The position numbers were made by a program, and so were the translations under genes. Below the pieces are notes generated by a model. That model saw only the letters and a program-made list of their open reading frames with translations. It did no database searches and was not told the DNA's origin. A stretch of 35,640 nucleotides of DNA from positions 1 to 35,640 of the forward strand of contig JAUYBU010000468.1 of NCBI GenBank assembly GCA_030693045.1, written 5' to 3'. Origin of the DNA: Bryobacterales bacterium. Lineage in GTDB: Bacteria > Acidobacteriota > Terriglobia > Bryobacterales > Bryobacteraceae. This document shows, piece by piece, positions 9,494-33,657 of the stretch. How positions within the stretch are numbered: the first letter of the stretch is position 1; each line of letters opens with the position of its first letter.

Positions 9494-10558
9494 CTACGTT
9501 AGCAGGGTGACGCAGTCTTCCAGGCGGCTCTGGGCGCCGCCGTCGTTCACGCAGAATCTCCCTTTCCACAGCGAGACCCCGGCGTAGGCGCCGTCCTTGC
9601 GCAGCGCGTAGAACTTGATGTCGAACTTGCGCAGGCGCTCCCGATCGTTGTCGAAGTTGCGGGCGATGCGCTTGAGCACGTCCAGGCCGGCGTCGGTGGG
9701 CGACATGCCGTGGCGCATGTTCTCGACGATGGAATGCGCCCCGGCGACGCGGATGTTTTCTTCGCCTCGCCCGGTGGAGCCGGCGGCGCCGACGTCCTGG
9801 TCCACGTACAGTCCCGCGCCGATGATGGGCGAGTCTCCGACACGTCCCGGAATCTTCCAGGCCAGACCGCTGGTGGTGGTCACGCCGGACATTTCGCCCT
9901 TCGGGTTCAAGGCCAGGCAGTTGATGGTGCCGGTGGGCGGGCGAACGGCCATTTGCCAGGCCCATGCCAGGGTCTCGTCGTCGGCGTCGGGGAACAGGCG
10001 GCGCAGGCCGGAGGTCTTCTTGGGGACCGGCGCGTCCAGGCCGTCGGTCCAGTTGTTGTTGCCGGAGGCGTCGCGCAGGGACCGTTTCCAGACCAGCCAC
10101 GCCAGGCGCGACTTCACGGTCAGCAGGTCCTCCTCCTTGAAGCCGCAGGCGCGGGCGAATCGCAGGGCGCCATCGCCCACCAGCATGATGTGATCGGTCT
10201 GTTCCATCACCAGCTTGGCGACCTTGGACGGCGTCTTGATATTCCGGATGGAGGCCACCGAGCCGGCGCGGCGCGTGGGTCCGTGCATGACGCTGGCATC
10301 CAGTTCGACCACCCCCTCCTCGTTCGGCAAACCGCCGTAGCCGACCGAGGTGTCGTTGGGGTCTTCTTCCACCATGTTGACGCCGGCGACCACGGCGTCC
10401 AGCGTGTCGTGGCCGGCATTCAGCATCTGCATGGCGCGGGCGCAGGCGATCAGGCCGTTGGCGCTTGAGATCACGATGTTCTTGGGAGCGGCGTTTTGCG
10501 CGGCGCGGGCGGCGGCGACGGCCCCCGTGGTGAGCATCCAATTCCTTCGGGTGATCAT
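9494..10558 (-). CDS. N4-(beta-N-acetylglucosaminyl)-L-asparaginase-like Ntn hydrolase, Tat-exported
   Basis: A 354-residue Ntn-hydrolase of the glycosylasparaginase / isoaspartyl peptidase family. These are made as a precursor that cleaves itself before a Thr which becomes the nucleophile. The likely nucleophile is Thr211 in TGTINCLAL, followed by GEMSGVTTTSGLAWK and GRVGDSPIIGAG, which are hallmark substrate-pocket segments. The residue before the Thr is Gly rather than the Asp of characterised glycosylasparaginases. The N-terminus TRRNWMLTTGAVAAARAA is a twin-arginine signal peptide, so the enzyme acts outside the cytoplasm, perhaps on glycopeptides. The start (ATG 10558) is set by this signal; upstream extension of the open frame is antisense to the next gene. 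It is divergent from the 10577 gene by only 18 bases. Confidence 0.88.
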   Translation of the reverse strand: MITRRNWMLTTGAVAAARAAQNAAPKNIVISSANGLIACARAMQMLNAGHDTLDAVVAGVNMVEEDPNDTSVGYGGLPNEEGVVELDASVMHGPTRRAGSVASIRNIKTPSKVAKLVMEQTDHIMLVGDGALRFARACGFKEEDLLTVKSRLAWLVWKRSLRDASGNNNWTDGLDAPVPKKTSGLRRLFPDADDETLAWAWQMAVRPPTGTINCLALNPKGEMSGVTTTSGLAWKIPGRVGDSPIIGAGLYVDQDVGAAGSTGRGEENIRVAGAHSIVENMRHGMSPTDAGLDVLKRIARNFDNDRERLRKFDIKFYALRKDGAYAGVSLWKGRFCVNDGGAQSRLEDCVTLLT

Positions 10559-10564
10559 ATCGGC

Positions 10565-10570
10565 TACACT
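10565..10570 (+). promoter_or_regulatory. -10-like hexamer TACACT six bases before the start
   Basis: TACACT followed by six bases and ATG 10577. Such spacing predicts a transcript that starts at or near the start codon, so no leader. The same arrangement occurs before 11580 and before 16398. Confidence 0.4.
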
Positions 10571-10576
10571 TTCCTC

Positions 10577-10981
10577 ATGAGGAACGTTGTTCCGGTTCTT
10601 CTGGTGGCGCTTGCAACATTGTCGGTCGCGGCCGACAGAAAACGCAACCAGGCGCCTCCCAGGCCGGCCGAGATCGAGATCGTGGAAATCACGGCGCACC
10701 GCGGCGACGGCCGGGTTTCGCTCGATGGACGGGTAAAGAACACGGGAGAGCGCGCCGCCGTGGGCATAGTGCTCTTGTTCGACTTCATGGCGCCGGGCCG
10801 GCAGGTGATTACCACCAAACGGGGCGACCTGGAAATTGCGACGCTCGAGCCGGGCGAGGAAGCCGAGTTTCACGTCTACGCGCCCGAGCCGCCGCGCGCG
10901 GTCGAGATCCGCGTCCAGGTGCAGGACGGCTCCGAACGCGAATTGAAGGTCATCAAGCCCGGACCCTACGCCATCGAGTAG
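10577..10981 (+). CDS. Small secreted protein, FxLYD/CARDB-like single domain
   Basis: A 134-residue protein with a Sec signal peptide (MRNVVPVLLVALATLSVAA) and one predicted beta-sandwich. The domain pattern (GRVSLDGRVKNTGERAAVGIVLLFDF, then LEPGEEAEFHV) resembles FxLYD or CARDB-like domains, which often mediate extracellular adhesion or scaffold contacts. This is a fold-level guess from alternating beta patterns. The open frame extends upstream to 10496, but the signal peptide fixes the start at ATG 10577. The divergent glycosylasparaginase gene begins 18 bases away, so the two promoters must overlap coding sequence. No ribosome site is present, consistent with leaderless translation. A large hairpin repeat follows 10 bases after the stop. 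Confidence 0.75.
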   Translation: MRNVVPVLLVALATLSVAADRKRNQAPPRPAEIEIVEITAHRGDGRVSLDGRVKNTGERAAVGIVLLFDFMAPGRQVITTKRGDLEIATLEPGEEAEFHVYAPEPPRAVEIRVQVQDGSERELKVIKPGPYAIE

Positions 10982-10990
10982 CGCCCCAAT

Positions 10991-11098
10991 AAATGCGTCA
11001 GCCTGGTATGGCCCCTTTTCTGGGACAGACCAGTGTGTCCCTTGCGGACACACCTGTCTGTCCCGAAATAAAAGGGGCCATACCAGGCTGACGCATTT
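10991..11098. repeat. 108-bp near-complete hairpin, REP-like element
   Basis: The outer arms 10991-11019 and 11070-11098 are perfect 29-bp reverse complements (AAATGCGTCAGCCTGG...). Inside, 11022-11040 pairs with 11046-11064 over 19 bases with two mismatches, leaving a five-base loop. The inner part carries TGTCCCGAAATA, close to the core of the repeat at 510-611. It lies between two + strand genes and may act as a terminator for the first. No transposase is nearby; a REP-associated tyrosine transposase acting in trans is plausible. Confidence 0.85.
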
Positions 11099-11107
11099 TT
11101 CTTGAGG

Positions 11108-11126
11108 TTTTACAGTTTTTTTACAG
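11108..11126. promoter_or_regulatory. PHO-box-like 11-bp-spaced direct repeat
   Basis: TTTTACAG occurs at 11108-11115 and again at 11119-11126, exactly 11 bp apart. On the other strand this reads CTGTAAAA-AAA-CTGTAAAA, similar in layout to the PHO box (CTGTCAT repeats at 11-bp period). OmpR/PhoB-type winged-helix proteins bind such one-turn direct repeats. It lies about 60-70 bp upstream of a gene for exactly such a DNA-binding domain, so autoregulation is plausible. Confidence 0.5.
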
Positions 11127-11196
11127 GTCTTTCGCGACACCCGTTCCGGAAAGCCGTAGCATCGAAGCTGAGACGACTGTTATGGAGACCTCTCGT

Positions 11197-11550
11197 ATGG
11201 CCCCCGCCAGATACCAGGACGAGCACCTGACGTTCGATTTCGCCAGCGGCGCCGCGCATTGCGACTCGCAGCCCATGGTCCTGACGCGCAAGGAACAGGA
11301 GCTGCTTGCCATGCTGCTGGGCAACCAGGGCGAGATCGTTCCGCGACAGGTGCTGCTCAGCCGGGTGTGGGGATACCACCTGGAGTGCCGGACGCGAACC
11401 CTGGACGTGCATATCCGGCGCCTGCGCAAGAAACTGGGAGCCCTCGGCGACATCTACATCGAGACGATTTTCGGCGTGGGGTACCGGTTCCAGCGGTATC
11501 GCGAGCCGCGCTACGGGCCGTCCTTCGGGCCGGCGCTGGCCACGGCCTAA
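11197..11550 (+). CDS. Receiver-less OmpR/PhoB-type winged-helix DNA-binding protein
   Basis: A 117-residue protein (122 from ATG 11182) that is essentially only a Trans_reg_C domain. LTRKEQELLAMLL, the recognition-helix region RTLDVHIRRLRKKLG and the wing IETIFGVGYRF are all present. There is no receiver domain and no membrane segment, so activity is not controlled by phosphorylation of this chain. ATG 11197 is preferred because GGAG lies eight bases upstream; ATG 11182 has no clear site. An 11-bp direct repeat suited to this protein family lies upstream. The gene is followed closely by a secreted protein gene with its own -10-like element. The target genes are unknown. Confidence 0.85.
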   Translation: MAPARYQDEHLTFDFASGAAHCDSQPMVLTRKEQELLAMLLGNQGEIVPRQVLLSRVWGYHLECRTRTLDVHIRRLRKKLGALGDIYIETIFGVGYRFQRYREPRYGPSFGPALATA

Positions 11551-11567
11551 CCGGCGCGCCGGCGCGA

Positions 11568-11573
11568 TATGCT
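11568..11573 (+). promoter_or_regulatory. -10-like hexamer TATGCT six bases before GTG start
   Basis: TATGCT, then GGTTGC, then the GTG at 11580. This is the same six-base spacing as at 10565-10577, again predicting a leaderless transcript. No Shine-Dalgarno sequence is visible. Confidence 0.4.
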
Positions 11574-11579
11574 GGTTGC

Positions 11580-12818
11580 GTGCCCGCAACCACGCACGCA
11601 ATCCTGCTCGCCGCCCTGTTGGGCGCCGGTTTCCGCCTGGATGTCGAACAACTGACCTTCGGGCCCAACAACCACTTCTTCGGCTATATCGGCCATGTAA
11701 AGAACATTCCATGGAACGGTAACGGCCGCTACATCGCCGCGCTGCGGACCGGCTTCCAGGACCACATGCCCACGCCCTCCGACGCCGCCGAAGTGGTTCT
11801 CATCGACACCCGGAGCGACAACGCAATCTCGGTCATCGACCGCAGCCGAGGCTGGAATTTCCAGCAGGGAACCATGTTCTACTGGAACCCCCGGGCGCCG
11901 GACACCGAACTGTTCTTCAATGACCGCGATCCCAAGACCAACCACGTCTTCACGGTCCTTTTCGACATCGCGAAAAAGAAGCGCATCCGCGAGTACCGCT
12001 TTGCGGACACTCCCTTCGGCAACAGCGGGGTGGCGCAGAACGGAGGCCGGTTCCTGGGCTTGAATTATGGCCGGCTGGCGCGCCTGCGTCCGGTCACCGG
12101 TTATCCGGAAGCGCACGACTGGGCCAAGGACGCCGCCGCTCCGGCCGACGACGGCATCTTCATCGTCGACGTCGAATCCGGGGCCAAGCGCCTGCTGGTT
12201 TCCTACCGCGCGCTGGCGGACCTGGTGAAGCGCCAGCGTCCGGACGTCGCGGGCAAGCAACTGTTCATCAACCACACGCTTTGGAATCGCGACGACAACC
12301 GCATTTACTTCTACCTGCGTGGCGATTTCGACGTGCCCGACAAACGTCTGGACATCCCGTGCACCATCCGGCCCGACGGAACCGCCCTCACCGCCCACAC
12401 CCTGCACATCGGTGGGCATCCGGAATGGGAGAACGGCGCGCGCATCATCGGCGCCGCCGATGGCAAGCAGATTATTTACGATGTGGACCAGCGGAAAGTG
12501 GTGGACAGCATCGGCGGGCCCGAGGTTTTCCCGAAGCCGGGCGGGGACGTGGCTTTGTCGCCGGACGGGAAGTTGCTGGCCAACGGCTACCGCGAGGGCC
12601 AGGCCAACTACTATGTCGTATTCCGCCGCGACGACGGCGCCTACGCGCGCACGCCCGGTTTTTCGCACCCCGGCCGCACGTCGGGCGATTTGCGCGTGGA
12701 CGGCTCCCCCAACTGGAACCGCACCAACGACCAGATCCTGTTTCCGGGGATTGCCAACGACGCCGGCCACACGCGCCAGCTTTTCCGGATTCGGATCGTG
12801 CCGGCGGCCGCGCGCTGA
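11580..12818 (+). CDS. Secreted protein, predicted TolB/WD-like beta-propeller
   Basis: A 412-residue protein starting at GTG 11580. The N-terminus (VPATTHAILLAALLGAGFRLDV) looks like a short signal peptide. The rest shows repeated blade-like segments: FFGYIGHVKNIPWNGNGRYIAAL, GTMFYWNPRAPDTELFFND, FINHTLWNRDDNRIYFYL, DVALSPDGKLLANGY and GSPNWNRTNDQILFPG. Phrases such as 'SPDGKLLANG' are typical of TolB-like or oligogalacturonate-lyase-like propellers. No catalytic residues are evident, so the role is unknown; carbohydrate or substrate recognition is possible. The open frame extends upstream to 11259 in another frame over the regulator gene, but that part is a shadow. The stop lies 32 bases before aroA. 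Confidence 0.7.
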   Translation: MPATTHAILLAALLGAGFRLDVEQLTFGPNNHFFGYIGHVKNIPWNGNGRYIAALRTGFQDHMPTPSDAAEVVLIDTRSDNAISVIDRSRGWNFQQGTMFYWNPRAPDTELFFNDRDPKTNHVFTVLFDIAKKKRIREYRFADTPFGNSGVAQNGGRFLGLNYGRLARLRPVTGYPEAHDWAKDAAAPADDGIFIVDVESGAKRLLVSYRALADLVKRQRPDVAGKQLFINHTLWNRDDNRIYFYLRGDFDVPDKRLDIPCTIRPDGTALTAHTLHIGGHPEWENGARIIGAADGKQIIYDVDQRKVVDSIGGPEVFPKPGGDVALSPDGKLLANGYREGQANYYVVFRRDDGAYARTPGFSHPGRTSGDLRVDGSPNWNRTNDQILFPGIANDAGHTRQLFRIRIVPAAAR

Positions 12819-12832
12819 ACCACCCGCTCGGC

Positions 12833-12845
12833 TAGAATGAGGGAG
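12833..12845 (+). promoter_or_regulatory. -10-like TAGAAT and ribosome site for aroA
   Basis: TAGAAT at 12833-12838 is followed by GGGAG at 12841-12845, five bases before ATG 12851. A transcript from this element would have a leader of only about six bases. Confidence 0.4.
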
Positions 12846-12850
12846 TCCTC

Positions 12851-14131
12851 ATGGATCAGCGAATCACGCCAGCGAAATCGGTCGGCGGCGCAGTCACGCT
12901 TCCCGGCGACAAATCCATCTCGCACCGCCTGGCGATCCTGGCGTCGATCGCCGAGGGCAAATCCCGCATCCTGAACTACTCGACCGGCGCGGACTGCCAA
13001 TCGACGCTCGGCTGCCTGCGCGCGCTGGGCGTCGAGATCGAGAAGACCGGCGACGATCTGACCATCCGGGGCCGGGGCCTGGGCGGGCTGAGAGCGCCGC
13101 TGGAGGTGCTCGACGCCGGGAATTCCGGCTCGACCATCCGGATGCTCTCGGGGGTTCTCGCGGCGCAGCCCTTCGCCAGCCGCATTGGGGGAGACGACTC
13201 GCTCTCGCGCCGCCCGATGGAGCGCATCATGCGCCCGCTGGGCGAAATGGGCGCATCGATCCGGGCGCGCGACGGCAAGTTTCCGCCGCTTGAAATCACG
13301 GGAACGCGTCTGCGGGCGATCGACTACACGCTGCCGGTGGCCAGCGCGCAGGTAAAGACCTGCGTCCTGTTCGCCGGCCTGTTCGCGCGTGGGCGCACAA
13401 CGGTTCAGGAACCGGTTCGCACGCGAGACCACAGCGAGATCGCGCTGCGCGAGTTCGGCGCGGGCATCGACGTTCAGGGGCCCTTGGTTTCGATTCAGGG
13501 CGGCGTGCCGCTGGCGGGGTGCCAGGTGCGGACGCCGGGCGATCTTTCTTCGGCCGCGTTCTTCCTGGTGGCGGCGCTGGCGACGCCCGAGGCGAACCTG
13601 GTCATTCGCGGCGTGGGATTGAACCCGACGCGTTCGGCGCTGCTCGATTTTCTGATTTCGATGGGCGGCGAGATCAGGGTTCTGAATCTGGACCAGTCCG
13701 GCGGCGAGCTGGTTGGAGACGTGCTCGCGCGCGGCTCGCGCATCCGCGGCGGCCTCATCGAAAAGGACCTCACCGCCGCGCTGATCGACGAGATTCCGGT
13801 TCTGGCCGTGCTGGGCGCCATGAGCGAAAACGGCCTCACCGTGCGCGACGCCCAGGAACTGCGCATCAAGGAGACCGACCGTATCGCCACGGTGTCGGAG
13901 AATCTCAAGCGCATGGGGATCGAGGCCGAGGTCTTCCCCGACGGGTTGCGGGTTCCGGGCCGGCAGCGGTTCCGCGCCGCGGAGGTCGAATCTTTCGGCG
14001 ACCACCGGATTGCGATGGCCTTCGCCGTCGCGGCCTTGTTTGCCGATGGCGAAACCCTCCTGCGGGGGGCCGAGGCGGCGGCTGTCTCGTACCCCGAGTT
14101 TTTCGCTACACTGCGTAACATCGCCGGTTGA
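12851..14131 (+). CDS. aroA: 3-phosphoshikimate 1-carboxyvinyltransferase (EPSP synthase)
   Basis: A 426-residue cytoplasmic enzyme joining shikimate-3-phosphate and phosphoenolpyruvate in the sixth step of the shikimate pathway to aromatic amino acids. Family motifs in order: LPGDKSISHR (residues about 18-27), DAGNSGSTIRML, DDSLSRRPMERI, RTRDHSEIALREFG, PGDLSSAAFFLVAA, LRIKETDRIA and FGDHRIAMAFAVAAL. All expected substrate-binding Lys/Arg/Glu residues appear in place, and the length is normal. The start has a GGGAG ribosome site five bases upstream. The stop overlaps the region of the next gene's start, so the histidine kinase gene is probably co-transcribed, although the two have no obvious functional link. 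Confidence 0.97.
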   Translation: MDQRITPAKSVGGAVTLPGDKSISHRLAILASIAEGKSRILNYSTGADCQSTLGCLRALGVEIEKTGDDLTIRGRGLGGLRAPLEVLDAGNSGSTIRMLSGVLAAQPFASRIGGDDSLSRRPMERIMRPLGEMGASIRARDGKFPPLEITGTRLRAIDYTLPVASAQVKTCVLFAGLFARGRTTVQEPVRTRDHSEIALREFGAGIDVQGPLVSIQGGVPLAGCQVRTPGDLSSAAFFLVAALATPEANLVIRGVGLNPTRSALLDFLISMGGEIRVLNLDQSGGELVGDVLARGSRIRGGLIEKDLTAALIDEIPVLAVLGAMSENGLTVRDAQELRIKETDRIATVSENLKRMGIEAEVFPDGLRVPGRQRFRAAEVESFGDHRIAMAFAVAALFADGETLLRGAEAAAVSYPEFFATLRNIAG

Positions 14132-14151
14132 ACGGGAGGCGCCTGATCGCC

Positions 14152-14802
14152 ATGGACGGGGAACGACGCGCCGACCTGACCCTTGAAGGTCTGGTCCACG
14201 ACCTCAATAACGTCTTCGAGACCATTTCGGAGGCCGCCGATCTGATTGCCGGCGACAGCCGCTCGAAGAAACTCGCCAACAGCATTCACCGCAGCGTCGC
14301 GCGCGGGGAACGCATTGTCGAGAGTTTCGTCGAAACCGCGCGCGGGTCGGTCGAGCTGGCCGGAGTGCTGAGTTGCGCGACCGAATTCGCGCGCGATTTT
14401 CTTTCGACCGGGCGATCGCCGGAAGTCGAATTCGACCTCCAGTTGGAACCCGGCCTCCGTCTCAAGGGTTTGCCGGGGGCGTGGGAACGAGTGTTCGTCA
14501 ACCTGTTCCTCAACGCCGCTCAAGCGATGAAGCAGGGCGGCACGATTCAGGTGCGCGCACGGCTGGCCGGCGGGGGAGTCGAGATCGTCGTCGCCGACCA
14601 GGGACCGGGCATCCCGCCCGAGATTCTGCCCGAGATCTTCAAACCGCACTTCTCGACCAAGTCGTCGCGGCGCTCGGCCTTCAAGGGGCTCGGGCTGCAC
14701 ATCGTCGAGTCGGTGGTTTCGCAGAACGGCGGCGCCGTGGCCGCCGCCAATCGCCCGGATGCCGCGGGCGCGGAATTCACCATCCGGCTGCCGGAGGGGT
14801 AA
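14152..14802 (+). CDS. Soluble sensor histidine kinase, HATPase core without sensor domain
   Basis: A 216-residue protein from ATG 14152 (a TTG at 14128, overlapping the aroA stop, is the alternative). The phospho-acceptor His is about residue 16 in GLVHDLNNVFETI, a HisKA-like box. The ATP-binding domain has the N box (FVNLFLNAAQAM), G1 (VADQGPGIPPEI), the F box (IFKPHFSTK) and G2 (GLGLHIVESVV). There is no membrane segment and no PAS, GAF or other input domain, so it must be recruited by another sensor or respond to a soluble partner. GGGAGG lies 12 bases before ATG, rather far. TACACT at 14106-14111 inside aroA could be its own -10. It converges with a receiver protein gene five bases away. 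Confidence 0.88.
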   Translation: MDGERRADLTLEGLVHDLNNVFETISEAADLIAGDSRSKKLANSIHRSVARGERIVESFVETARGSVELAGVLSCATEFARDFLSTGRSPEVEFDLQLEPGLRLKGLPGAWERVFVNLFLNAAQAMKQGGTIQVRARLAGGGVEIVVADQGPGIPPEILPEIFKPHFSTKSSRRSAFKGLGLHIVESVVSQNGGAVAAANRPDAAGAEFTIRLPEG

Positions 14803-14807
14803 AACCT

Positions 14808-15287
14808 TCAGGCGGTTATTTTGAGAGCCACCTCCACGGAGGCGCGGCGCATGGTATGCGCCACCCCGCGCTGGCGCCAGTGAAGCCACGCGGCGCCGAT
14901 AACGCGGACAACCTCCGCGCGATCGAACGGTTTAGCAAGCACGTCGTAGCCGCCCAGGTTGAGCACTTCGGCCCACAGGTGCTCGTCGGCCTGGTGCGAC
15001 GTAACGATAAGCAGCGGTTCGTCGGAGCGTTGCGCGAAGCGGTTCAATAAGCTCTTCCAGCTTCCGTCCGGCAGAGCGCACTCGCACACCACCACCGGAA
15101 TTCGATTGGATTCGAGGATCTCGAAGGCTTCACGGCATGAACGCGCCGACAATATCCGCCACTTGGAGTGGCGTAAAATCTGATCCAGGCAGCCATGATC
15201 CGCTTCGGAATCGCTGACCACCAGCACGGTGACTGCTCTTTCGGGCGGCGGCGCGCCAGGGTAGAGACAGGCAGGATCCGTCATCAT
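14808..15287 (-). CDS. Receiver-domain protein with phospho-acceptor Asp replaced by Glu
   Basis: A 159-residue single-domain response-regulator-like protein. The receiver fold is visible: acidic site in VLVVSDSEAD, the beta-3 end VVVCECALPDGSW, Thr/Ser switch region LLIVTSHQ, and conserved Lys in DVLAKPFDRAEV. The residue at the usual phospho-Asp position is Glu (the E of CECALPDG), which commonly mimics constitutive phosphorylation or marks a pseudo-receiver. There is no DNA-binding output domain. The start ATG 15287 has a strong AGGAGGTAGG ribosome site. The gene converges with the soluble histidine kinase (gap five bases), so the two could be functional partners, but phosphotransfer to this protein is doubtful without the Asp. 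Confidence 0.85.
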   Translation of the reverse strand: MMTDPACLYPGAPPPERAVTVLVVSDSEADHGCLDQILRHSKWRILSARSCREAFEILESNRIPVVVCECALPDGSWKSLLNRFAQRSDEPLLIVTSHQADEHLWAEVLNLGGYDVLAKPFDRAEVVRVIGAAWLHWRQRGVAHTMRRASVEVALKITA

Positions 15288-15366
15288 CCTACCTCCTGCT
15301 CAAGCTGCCCTTATCATGCGCCGCGGCGCACGCCGTGTCAAGTAAAATTCAGCGGGATTCCTGGGA

Positions 15367-16398
15367 TCAGCTTTGCGGCGAGCGCTGCTTGGCCTGCTCG
15401 ATGGCGATGTGATTTACGTGCGCCAGGGCCTTGGCGCCCGAGGCTCCTTCGATGGCCTTGACGGCGATATCCTGCACCTGCTGCTTGGCCTCGGCGATTT
15501 GCTTTTGAAGCTCGGCAAGCTGGGCCGACTGGCTGGCGATGGTTTCTTCCAGCGTCCGGATCCGGAGTTCCGCCAGGCGTTTATCCGACTCGCCGTCCTT
15601 CTTCAGCATCAGCATCTGCTGCTCGAACCGCAGCTCGGTGTCTTTGGTGGCTTGTTTAGCGGCCTGGTCCGTCTCCTTTTGGAGCCGCGCCGGGAACTGC
15701 TCGGCTTCCTTCTTGAGCCGGAGGAACTCCTCCTCCCTCTCCTTGAGCGCCGCCTCGCGCTGATGCCAGCTCTTTTCGAGGGCTTCCTGCTTCTCCTGGT
15801 TCTTCTTCTCCAGCAGCCGCATTTCCTCGTCGTACTTGTCCTGGGCCTTCTTGCGCTCGAGCGTCTTTTTGTATTCGTAGTCGTCGATTTCGCGCTGACG
15901 TTGTTTCTTCAGGGCATCCTCGAGATCCTTTCGCTCGCGCTCGGCGGTCTCGGTCTCCTGTTCCCAGGCCGCGCGCTGCCCGGCGATTTCGGCGTCCAGC
16001 CGATCCTTCTCGCGGGAGTAGTCCTGGACCAGTTCATCCAGGGCGGTGGCCGCCAGGTCGATCTTGTGGAGCCGCTGCAGTTCGGCGCGCTCGAGTTCGA
16101 CCGCGGCGCGCGCGATGGCCAGGCCGTTCACCTCCTGCACCAGCCTTTCGGAGATGTCCGCCAGCGCCCGGGAGATTTCCAGCCCCAGGCCGCTAAGCTT
16201 CTGAACCACGGCTTCGACGGAAGCGCCCTCGACCGCCTCGCGAATCTCGGCTTCCCGCTGCTGTTCGAGTTCGGCGGCCTTGGCGCCGCCGGTTTCCCGC
16301 GCGGCCGCGACTTCCTTGCGGATTCCGGCGAATTCCTCCTGCACCTGCGCCTTGGAGCGAACCGGCCGCCCCGGCGGTTTCTTGGATGTGGTTGCCAT
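15367..16398 (-). CDS. Long coiled-coil protein with basic AT-hook-like N-terminus
   Basis: A 343-residue protein dominated by Glu/Lys/Gln/Ala-rich heptads from about residue 20 to 320, which predict long coiled coils. The first 16 residues (MATTSKKPPGRPVRSK) are basic and contain a GRP core similar to an AT-hook. There is no signal peptide or membrane segment. The start ATG 16398 is chosen because the upstream part of the open frame is antisense to the next gene's leader and lacks coding character. A -10-like CATACT lies six bases before it. It could be a cytoskeletal, chromosome-associated or scaffold protein; no specific family is recognised. It is divergent from the exported amidohydrolase gene. 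Confidence 0.75.
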   Translation of the reverse strand: MATTSKKPPGRPVRSKAQVQEEFAGIRKEVAAARETGGAKAAELEQQREAEIREAVEGASVEAVVQKLSGLGLEISRALADISERLVQEVNGLAIARAAVELERAELQRLHKIDLAATALDELVQDYSREKDRLDAEIAGQRAAWEQETETAERERKDLEDALKKQRQREIDDYEYKKTLERKKAQDKYDEEMRLLEKKNQEKQEALEKSWHQREAALKEREEEFLRLKKEAEQFPARLQKETDQAAKQATKDTELRFEQQMLMLKKDGESDKRLAELRIRTLEETIASQSAQLAELQKQIAEAKQQVQDIAVKAIEGASGAKALAHVNHIAIEQAKQRSPQS

Positions 16399-16404
16399 GC
16401 TCAC

Positions 16405-16410
16405 AGTATG
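16405..16410 (-). promoter_or_regulatory. -10-like hexamer CATACT six bases before ATG 16398
   Basis: On the - strand the sequence reads CATACT, GTGAGC, ATG. The spacing is identical to that before 10577 and 11580. It lacks the first T of TANNNT, so it is a weaker match. Confidence 0.3.
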
Positions 16411-16440
16411 CCTCAGGTTGTGTCGCGGCGGCGGGTGCGC

Positions 16441-16446
16441 TATCTT
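16441..16446 (+). promoter_or_regulatory. -10-like hexamer TATCTT upstream of the amidohydrolase gene
   Basis: TATCTT ends seven bases before ATG 16454 and 25 bases before ATG 16472. Initiation about seven bases downstream would give a leader of about 19 bases to ATG 16472 with the GGGGAGGG ribosome site, or a leaderless start at 16454. Confidence 0.35.
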
Positions 16447-16471
16447 TGCCCACATGGACCGGGGAGGGCTC

Positions 16472-18025
16472 ATGAAGCTGCGGGCTGGATTGATTGTCCT
16501 GTCTGTTGCGGTGGTTGCGGCGGCCCAGACGCCGCCCGTGGACACGCTGAAGCAGGCCGCCGTCGAGATGGCGGATGGCCGCCGGCAACTGACGCAGCGG
16601 ATTGTCGACTCGCTGTTCAGTTTCAGCGAACTGGGTTATCAGGAATACGAGTCGTCGGCCTACCTTTGCGCGCTGCTCGAAAAGGAAGGGTTTCAGGTCA
16701 CCCGCGGCGTGGCCGGCCTGCCCACGGCGTTCGTGGCCAGTTGGGGATCGGGCAAGCCGGTGATCGGCTTCATGACCGATATCGACGGGTTGCCGTCGAC
16801 GTCGCAGAAGCCCGGCGTGCCGCGCCAGGAGCCGCTGATCGCCGATGGCCCGGGCCACGGCGAAGGCCACAACACGGGCATGGGCGTGAACGTCACCGCG
16901 GCCATCGTGGTGAAGGAATTGATGAAGAAGCACGGCATCCCGGGAACCATCCGGGTTTATCCGGGCATCGCCGAGGAACTCATCGGCAGCCGCACCTACA
17001 TGGTAAACGCCGGGCTGTTCCGGGATCTCGACGTGATGCTGTCGAGCCACGTCTCGGCCGACTTCAGCACCGGCTTCGGCGGACCGTCGGGCACCGGATT
17101 GATCTCGACCATGTACACCTTCCACGGCCGCAGCGCGCACGCCGGCGCCTCGCCCTGGAGCGGGCGCAGCGCGCTGGACGCGGTGGAGTTGATGAACGCC
17201 GGCTGGAACTACCGCCGCGAGCACCTCAATCCGCAACATCGCTCGCATTACGTAATCGTGAACGGCGGCGAGCAGCCCAACGTGGTGCCCCCGCTGGCCA
17301 CCGTCTGGTACTACTTCCGCGAATGGGACTACGAGGCCATCGTGAACCTGCACGAAATCGGAACCAAGATCGCCCGCGCCGCCGCCGAAATGACCGACAC
17401 CACCATGAGCGAGCGTATGCTGGCCTCGGCCTGGCCCGGGCACTTCAACAAACCGATGGCCGAGGCGCTCGACGCCAACATCCAGCGCGTCGGGATGCCG
17501 GCCTGGTCGGAAGCCGATCAAAAGCTGGCGCGCGCGGCGCAGCGCGAGTTGAAGGCCAAGACCGACGGACTCAAGACCGAGGTCGGTAAGCTGAAAGAGG
17601 CCCAGCGCGGCGACAGCTACGGCTCCGACGACATCGCCGAGGTCTCCTGGAACCTGCCCACGGTGGTGCTGCGCTACCCGTGCAATATCCCCGGCATGAC
17701 TGGCCACCACTGGTCCAGCGGCATCGCCGTGGCGACGCCCATCGCCCATCAGGGCGCCACTGCCGGCGCCAAGGTGCACGCGCTCACCGCGCTCGATCTG
17801 TTGCTGAAGCCCGAATTGCTGGCCGCCGCCAAAGCTTACTTCGCCGAGCAGACCAAGACCGTCAAGTGGAAATCGCTGATCCCGACCGACACGAAACCGC
17901 CGATCGACCTAAACCGCGAGAAGATGGAGCGCCTCCGCCCGCAGCTTCAAAAACTCCGCTACGACGAGTCGAAGTACCCGACCTACCTGGAGCAACTGGG
18001 CGTCAAGTACCCGCCGCAGGAGTGA
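16472..18025 (+). CDS. Exported M20-family amidohydrolase / peptidase (AbgB-like)
   Basis: A 517-residue metallo-amidohydrolase of the M20 superfamily, closest in layout to AbgB-type p-aminobenzoyl-glutamate hydrolases. A Sec signal peptide (MKLRAGLIVLSVAVVAAA) puts it outside the cytoplasm. Visible metal-site segments are TDIDGLP (D-x-D-x-LP, about residues 102-108), GHGEGHN (128-134), IAEELIGSR with the catalytic Glu pair (168-169) and SSHVSADF. In M20D enzymes the CGH Cys is a metal ligand; here that position is Glu131. The dimerisation domain follows (HGRSAHAGASPWSGRSALDAV). ATG 16472 is preferred because GGGGAGGG lies just upstream and the signal peptide starts there; ATG 16454 adds six residues. 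The natural substrate is unknown, probably an acyl-amino acid or peptide. Confidence 0.9.
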   Translation: MKLRAGLIVLSVAVVAAAQTPPVDTLKQAAVEMADGRRQLTQRIVDSLFSFSELGYQEYESSAYLCALLEKEGFQVTRGVAGLPTAFVASWGSGKPVIGFMTDIDGLPSTSQKPGVPRQEPLIADGPGHGEGHNTGMGVNVTAAIVVKELMKKHGIPGTIRVYPGIAEELIGSRTYMVNAGLFRDLDVMLSSHVSADFSTGFGGPSGTGLISTMYTFHGRSAHAGASPWSGRSALDAVELMNAGWNYRREHLNPQHRSHYVIVNGGEQPNVVPPLATVWYYFREWDYEAIVNLHEIGTKIARAAAEMTDTTMSERMLASAWPGHFNKPMAEALDANIQRVGMPAWSEADQKLARAAQRELKAKTDGLKTEVGKLKEAQRGDSYGSDDIAEVSWNLPTVVLRYPCNIPGMTGHHWSSGIAVATPIAHQGATAGAKVHALTALDLLLKPELLAAAKAYFAEQTKTVKWKSLIPTDTKPPIDLNREKMERLRPQLQKLRYDESKYPTYLEQLGVKYPPQE

Positions 18026-33563: not shown

Positions 33564-33615
<52 letters not shown>

Positions 33616-33657
33616 GTCAACTGTTTACATATGTACACTCCGTGTCGTTTCAGTCAC

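Follow-up and report, generated by a model that had tools for sequence, protein, structure and literature searches.

TANNNT boxes adjoining start codons were predicted for Acidobacteria already in 2011, so the phenomenon itself is known. In the survey by Zheng et al. (2011), who named such genes TA-led, each of the 3 Acidobacteria genomes had them, at 9.7-19.4% of genes (PMC3160421). In M. tuberculosis, promoters carry TANNNT, often with [G/C][A/G]N before the box, and no -35 consensus; with mapped transcription start sites (TSSs), 26% of the genes that have a primary TSS are leaderless (Cortes et al. 2013, PMC3898074). A -10 motif adjoining open reading frames (ORFs) was described in Deinococcus-Thermus and reporter-tested in Deinococcus, and it concerns about one third of D. 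radiodurans genes (Zhong et al. 2025, PMC12340547), most Deinococcus genes with the motif being without a -35 element (PMC12340547). The StartLink authors put at 21.6% the share of bacterial species for which GeneMarkS-2 predicts leaderless transcription (PMC9581028). A gene caller restricted to Shine-Dalgarno (SD) sites misses leaderless genes or misplaces their starts. Acidobacteriota are abundant and hardly studied at the RNA level, and no transcription-start map for the phylum was found in the open-access literature searched; a leaderless prediction is therefore useful as well as testable.

The window analysed here is a stretch of 35,640 nucleotides from a metagenome-assembled genome (MAG) of Bryobacterales (Acidobacteriota), comprising 6.48 Mb in 624 contigs. 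The closest aroA matches are from Bryobacterales/Bryobacteraceae of the same phylum, at 60-69% identity; no 16S gene was found on searching the genome. A first-pass annotation of the window had read five hexamers as a recurring -10-like element, and taken them as a sign of frequent leaderless or very short-leader mRNAs. All five are present at the positions it gave. They are, however, a mixed set: two of them, TACACT and TATGCT, are TANNNT boxes 6 nt before plausible starts (10577 and 11580), and the others are CATACT, a TATCTT before the doubtful start 16454, and a TAGAAT 12 nt from aroA.

Genome-wide counts were made on a sample of 1.16 Mb (121 stretches, 18% of the MAG, 63% G+C) containing 879 called starts. 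Genes were called with a three-periodic Markov model in which the choice of start is blind to upstream sequence, and the spacer was defined as the number of nucleotides between the last T of TANNNT and the start codon. TANNNT occurs 28 times at spacer 6 and 26 times at spacer 7, as compared with about 9.5 times per spacer on average over spacers 10-40 and 1-6 times at spacers 0-4, in a profile smeared by the start errors of a simple gene finder. The 54 of 879 starts with the motif at spacers 6-7 compare with 12.9 +/- 3.4 in shuffles that preserve dinucleotides (z = 12.0). At spacers 5-8, the range in which the first-pass annotation had expected enrichment over shuffles, the count is 75 vs 24.3 (z = 10.5), which clearly bears that expectation out. 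The peak holds whichever of four start rules is applied (P = 3.6e-5 to 3.9e-11) and persists with the window excluded. TANNNT at spacers 6-7 is found chiefly in genes that come first in their unit, 41/455 (shuffles 8.2), and is only mildly raised in close downstream genes, 8/283, those at most 25 nt from an upstream gene on the same strand (shuffles 2.2). Subtracting shuffled from observed counts leaves about 51/879 genes (6%) and about 40/455 unit-first genes (9%), estimates that apply to the strict motif and are probably lower bounds. What had been called frequent is thus a real habit, but that of a minority, roughly 6-9% by this motif, and SD-type starts are far commoner. TANNNT also exceeds shuffles at spacers 14-17 and 22-25, an excess that represents leadered promoters.

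In high-G+C genomes starts tend to be A/T-rich, and the hexamers might on this account be chance A/T-rich strings. Such an origin would suit the mixture of TANNNT with CANNNT and of spacings of 6, 7 and 12 nt in the first-pass set, as well as the weak excess in an annotation-free count (3.6-3.75 vs about 2.7 TANNNT per thousand before ATG), which takes in every ATG and is too diluted for a decision. It is contradicted genome-wide by the dinucleotide shuffles and by a peak limited to two spacers, and also by orthologue conservation far above shuffles and by the clustering of start types on a gene tree (both below), so that chance is very unlikely as the general explanation.

The boxes have a promoter-like composition, the commonest being TATAAT, TAGAAT, TATGAT, TACACT and TACAAT. 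Position 4 is A in 53%, vs 14% in coding TANNNT, and the C typical of coding sequence is less frequent at position 3; the free letters thus shift from a TAC-rich coding pattern to the sigma70-type -10 consensus. G is enriched 2 nt (48%) and 4 nt (55%) before the box. In 75 TA-led genes, spacers 15-19 gave no clear sign of a -35 element (TTGACA about 17 bp upstream), spacer 18 being slightly raised at most. SD sites are present in 3-4% of TA-led genes vs 35% of others; however, control hexamers in the same place also exclude them (0-20%), and their absence was dropped as independent evidence. CANNNT is not enriched at leaderless spacing in the genome sample (18 vs 23 expected) and was dropped as an accepted variant of the box. 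GANNNT, in contrast, is mildly up 6-7 nt before starts (36 vs 24 expected), and GATAAT may be an accepted variant.

The observed motif, spacing, enrichment and conservation make leaderless or near-leaderless transcription well supported for a minority of genes. Very probably, a minority of unit-heading genes, including 10577 and 11580, carry a housekeeping-type -10 box 6-7 nt before the start and give leaderless mRNA. Under the proposed mechanism, TANNNT (at best TATAAT, TAGAAT or TACACT), with its last T 6-7 nt before the start codon, would serve as the -10 box, and RNA polymerase would initiate at the opening base of ATG or GTG, or within 1-2 nt of it. Since transcription would begin at or near the start codon, the mRNA would have no room for a leader or SD site, and would be translated as a leaderless message. 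The start nucleotide and the mode of translation are proposed here from the motif together with studies of other phyla.

In the window, 3/30 called starts have TANNNT at 6-7 nt (10577, 11580 and the doubtful 16454). The probability of this is 0.01 if starts carry the motif as often as in shuffles, and 0.28 if as often as in the genome itself; thus the cluster is non-random, and its density is ordinary for this genome.

The gene at 10577-10981 (plus strand) encodes a 134-aa secreted-type protein, without a match in a Pfam search, that opens with a signal-peptide-like MRNVVPVLLVALATLSVAA. Its -10 box TACACT (10565-10570, plus strand) lies 6 nt before ATG 10577. Among 29 Bryobacteraceae orthologues (the window's own included, identity down to about 36%), TANNNT stands 5-9 nt before the start in 20, vs 1.9 expected from shuffles; as these shuffles permute single bases, expected counts for this and the other orthologue sets are approximate. 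The orthologue boxes are mostly TACACT, TAAACT and TAGACT, and the rest of the flank has diverged. Judged from sequence, 10577 is a strong example of a gene that is probably leaderless. It diverges from an Asparaginase_2 gene (9494-10558, minus strand; PF01112, E = 7.8e-62), whose ATG 10558 opens a Tat-like MITRRNWMLTTGAVAAA. A same-genus locus (L189) keeps MITRRNWM with differences in third codon positions only. The Tat-like signal and this conservation make ATG 10558 the likely true start, and the gap of 18 bp between the divergent ATGs, which the first-pass annotation had pointed out, is therefore probably genuine. In the asparaginase direction no clear -10 box turned up at leaderless spacing; a TATGAT overlaps that gene's own start codon.

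The second example, a gene for a 412-aa protein (11580-12818, plus strand) also without a match in a Pfam search, has TATGCT as its -10 box (11568-11573, plus strand), 6 nt before GTG 11580 and within an intergenic gap of 29 bp. TANNNT is found at leaderless spacing in 8/27 orthologues vs 1.3 expected from shuffles, and a same-genus orthologue (L219) has TATGCT 6 nt before an ATG. It is a good candidate, and this gene too is probably leaderless. The boxes could also be promoters whose transcripts lose the first codon, through processing or through initiation several nucleotides downstream, with an internal start being used. However, the orthologues of 10577 and 11580 offer no well-conserved alternative start further on. 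Direct mapping has shown leaderless transcripts with TANNNT in M. tuberculosis (PMC3898074), and in Deinococcus the motif has been reporter-tested (PMC12340547). This explanation is hardly credible beside initiation at the start codon.

Two repeat families were observed in the window. A long near-perfect palindrome (10988-11099) lies between the genes at 10577 and 11182, with a predicted fold of -93.7 kcal/mol for a 130-nt stretch. Its outer arm, GGGGCCATACCAGGCTGACGC, has 105 copies in the genome (57 forward, 48 reverse), most of them paired in inverted orientation at distances of about 10-160 nt around a middle that varies, and zero copies in the same-genus genome and 29 other relatives; the palindrome is an element of REP- or MITE-like type that has spread recently. 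The second family, GGGATTTCGTAGCCTGTCCCCG (515-605), likewise forms inverted pairs. The 1.16-Mb sample contains 30 exact copies and 41 near ones, and some of these directly precede start codons and TANNNT boxes. A weak tRNA match was seen at 33567-33638 on the minus strand (29.4 bits vs the Rfam threshold of 29).

For the M20-family peptidase (PF01546, E = 9.7e-8), the called start 16454 was replaced by the in-frame ATG 16472 (gene 16472-18025, plus strand), which opens a signal-peptide-like MKLRAGLIVLSVAVVAAAQ, is where the orthologues begin, and is preceded by a Shine-Dalgarno site, GGGGAGGG (16461-16468, plus strand). A same-genus orthologue (L249, 89% identical) has TAC and no start at the equivalent of 16454, and has a start at the equivalent of 16472 with an SD-like GAAAGGGA before it, which places it in the same SD class. 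Start 16454 is thus most likely a start-calling error. The possible -10 box TATCTT (16441-16446, plus strand), 7 nt before 16454 and 25 nt before ATG 16472, could give a leader of about 18 nt.

This case raises the possibility that the boxes elsewhere are likewise ordinary -10 elements, with true starts further downstream behind a short SD-bearing leader, and short-leader versions are indeed common among the orthologues of 16398 (below). However, the signal peptide of 10577 opens at the ATG itself and dissimilar orthologues keep a spacing of 6-9 nt, while for 11580, in both same-genus genomes, no other start lies closer to the conserved N-terminus. Misplacement, apparently true of 16454, is unlikely to account for the class as a whole, and the leaderless reading is kept for 10577 and 11580.

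The aroA gene (EPSP synthase, 12851-14131, plus strand; PF00275, E = 1.5e-104) has TAGAAT (12833-12838, plus strand) 12 nt before ATG 12851, and directly after it a Shine-Dalgarno site, GAGGGAG (12839-12845, plus strand). The first-pass remark that several of these genes lack a ribosome site therefore does not hold for aroA or for 16472. Both are classed as SD-led, and the first-pass reading of leaderless or very short-leader mRNAs is retained for 10577 and 11580 and given up for 16454 and aroA.

The called ORF at 15367-16398 (minus strand) encodes a Gln/Glu/Lys-rich, coiled-coil-like protein of 343 aa, without a match in a Pfam search. CATACT (16405-16410, minus strand), 6 nt before ATG 16398, is a doubtful -10 box: it had been counted as the same motif, and is an instance of the unenriched CANNNT. 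Only 1/21 orthologues is TA-led (1.1 expected), and 13/21 are SD-led, most of these with TANNNT about 20-28 nt upstream. In the window the gene may have lost its own leader, or CATACT may be there by chance, and the chance explanation may still apply to this gene.

Orthologues of the M20 peptidase (L248-L277) are TA-led in 16/29 (1.0 expected) and SD-led in 11/29, the genes of the window and its same-genus relative both being SD-led. By these upstream sequences, some Bryobacteraceae clades have the gene in leaderless form and others in SD-led form. In the protein tree, 3 changes of mode suffice, vs 8.8 with shuffled labels (0/500 as low), a count that is approximate in a quick tree with several open forks. 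Since few changes are needed, the mode appears inherited, unlike chance hexamers. Whether this extends to Bryobacteraceae at large, with the mode of each gene (leaderless or SD-led) an inherited, clade-specific trait that changed in few switches through shifts in the distance between -10 box and start codon, is evenly balanced. If so, the family would be a natural set for the study of leader gain and loss.

Contigs around aroA from other Acidobacteria, taken with a crude start rule and in a small sample, suggest a spacer-6 peak for Terriglobales (12/120 starts) and a broad rise of TANNNT in Bryobacterales. The boxes resemble those of the TA-led genes of Zheng et al. (2011), in which TANNNT precedes the start codon by about 10-12 bp (PMC3160421). 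The present results differ in coming from a Bryobacterales MAG, in the stricter definition of motif and spacing, which yields about 6% of genes overall and 9% of those first in their unit, and in adding conservation at the level of orthologues for Bryobacterales genes. With M. tuberculosis the boxes share TANNNT, the lack of a -35 consensus and a G/C-type preference just before the box; the leaderless starts of this MAG are, however, predicted from sequence and of lower frequency. With Deinococcus-Thermus, another phylum, they have in common a TANNNT that precedes the ORF by a few bp at a specific spacing, usually with no -35, the leaderless layout of this MAG being predicted from sequence.
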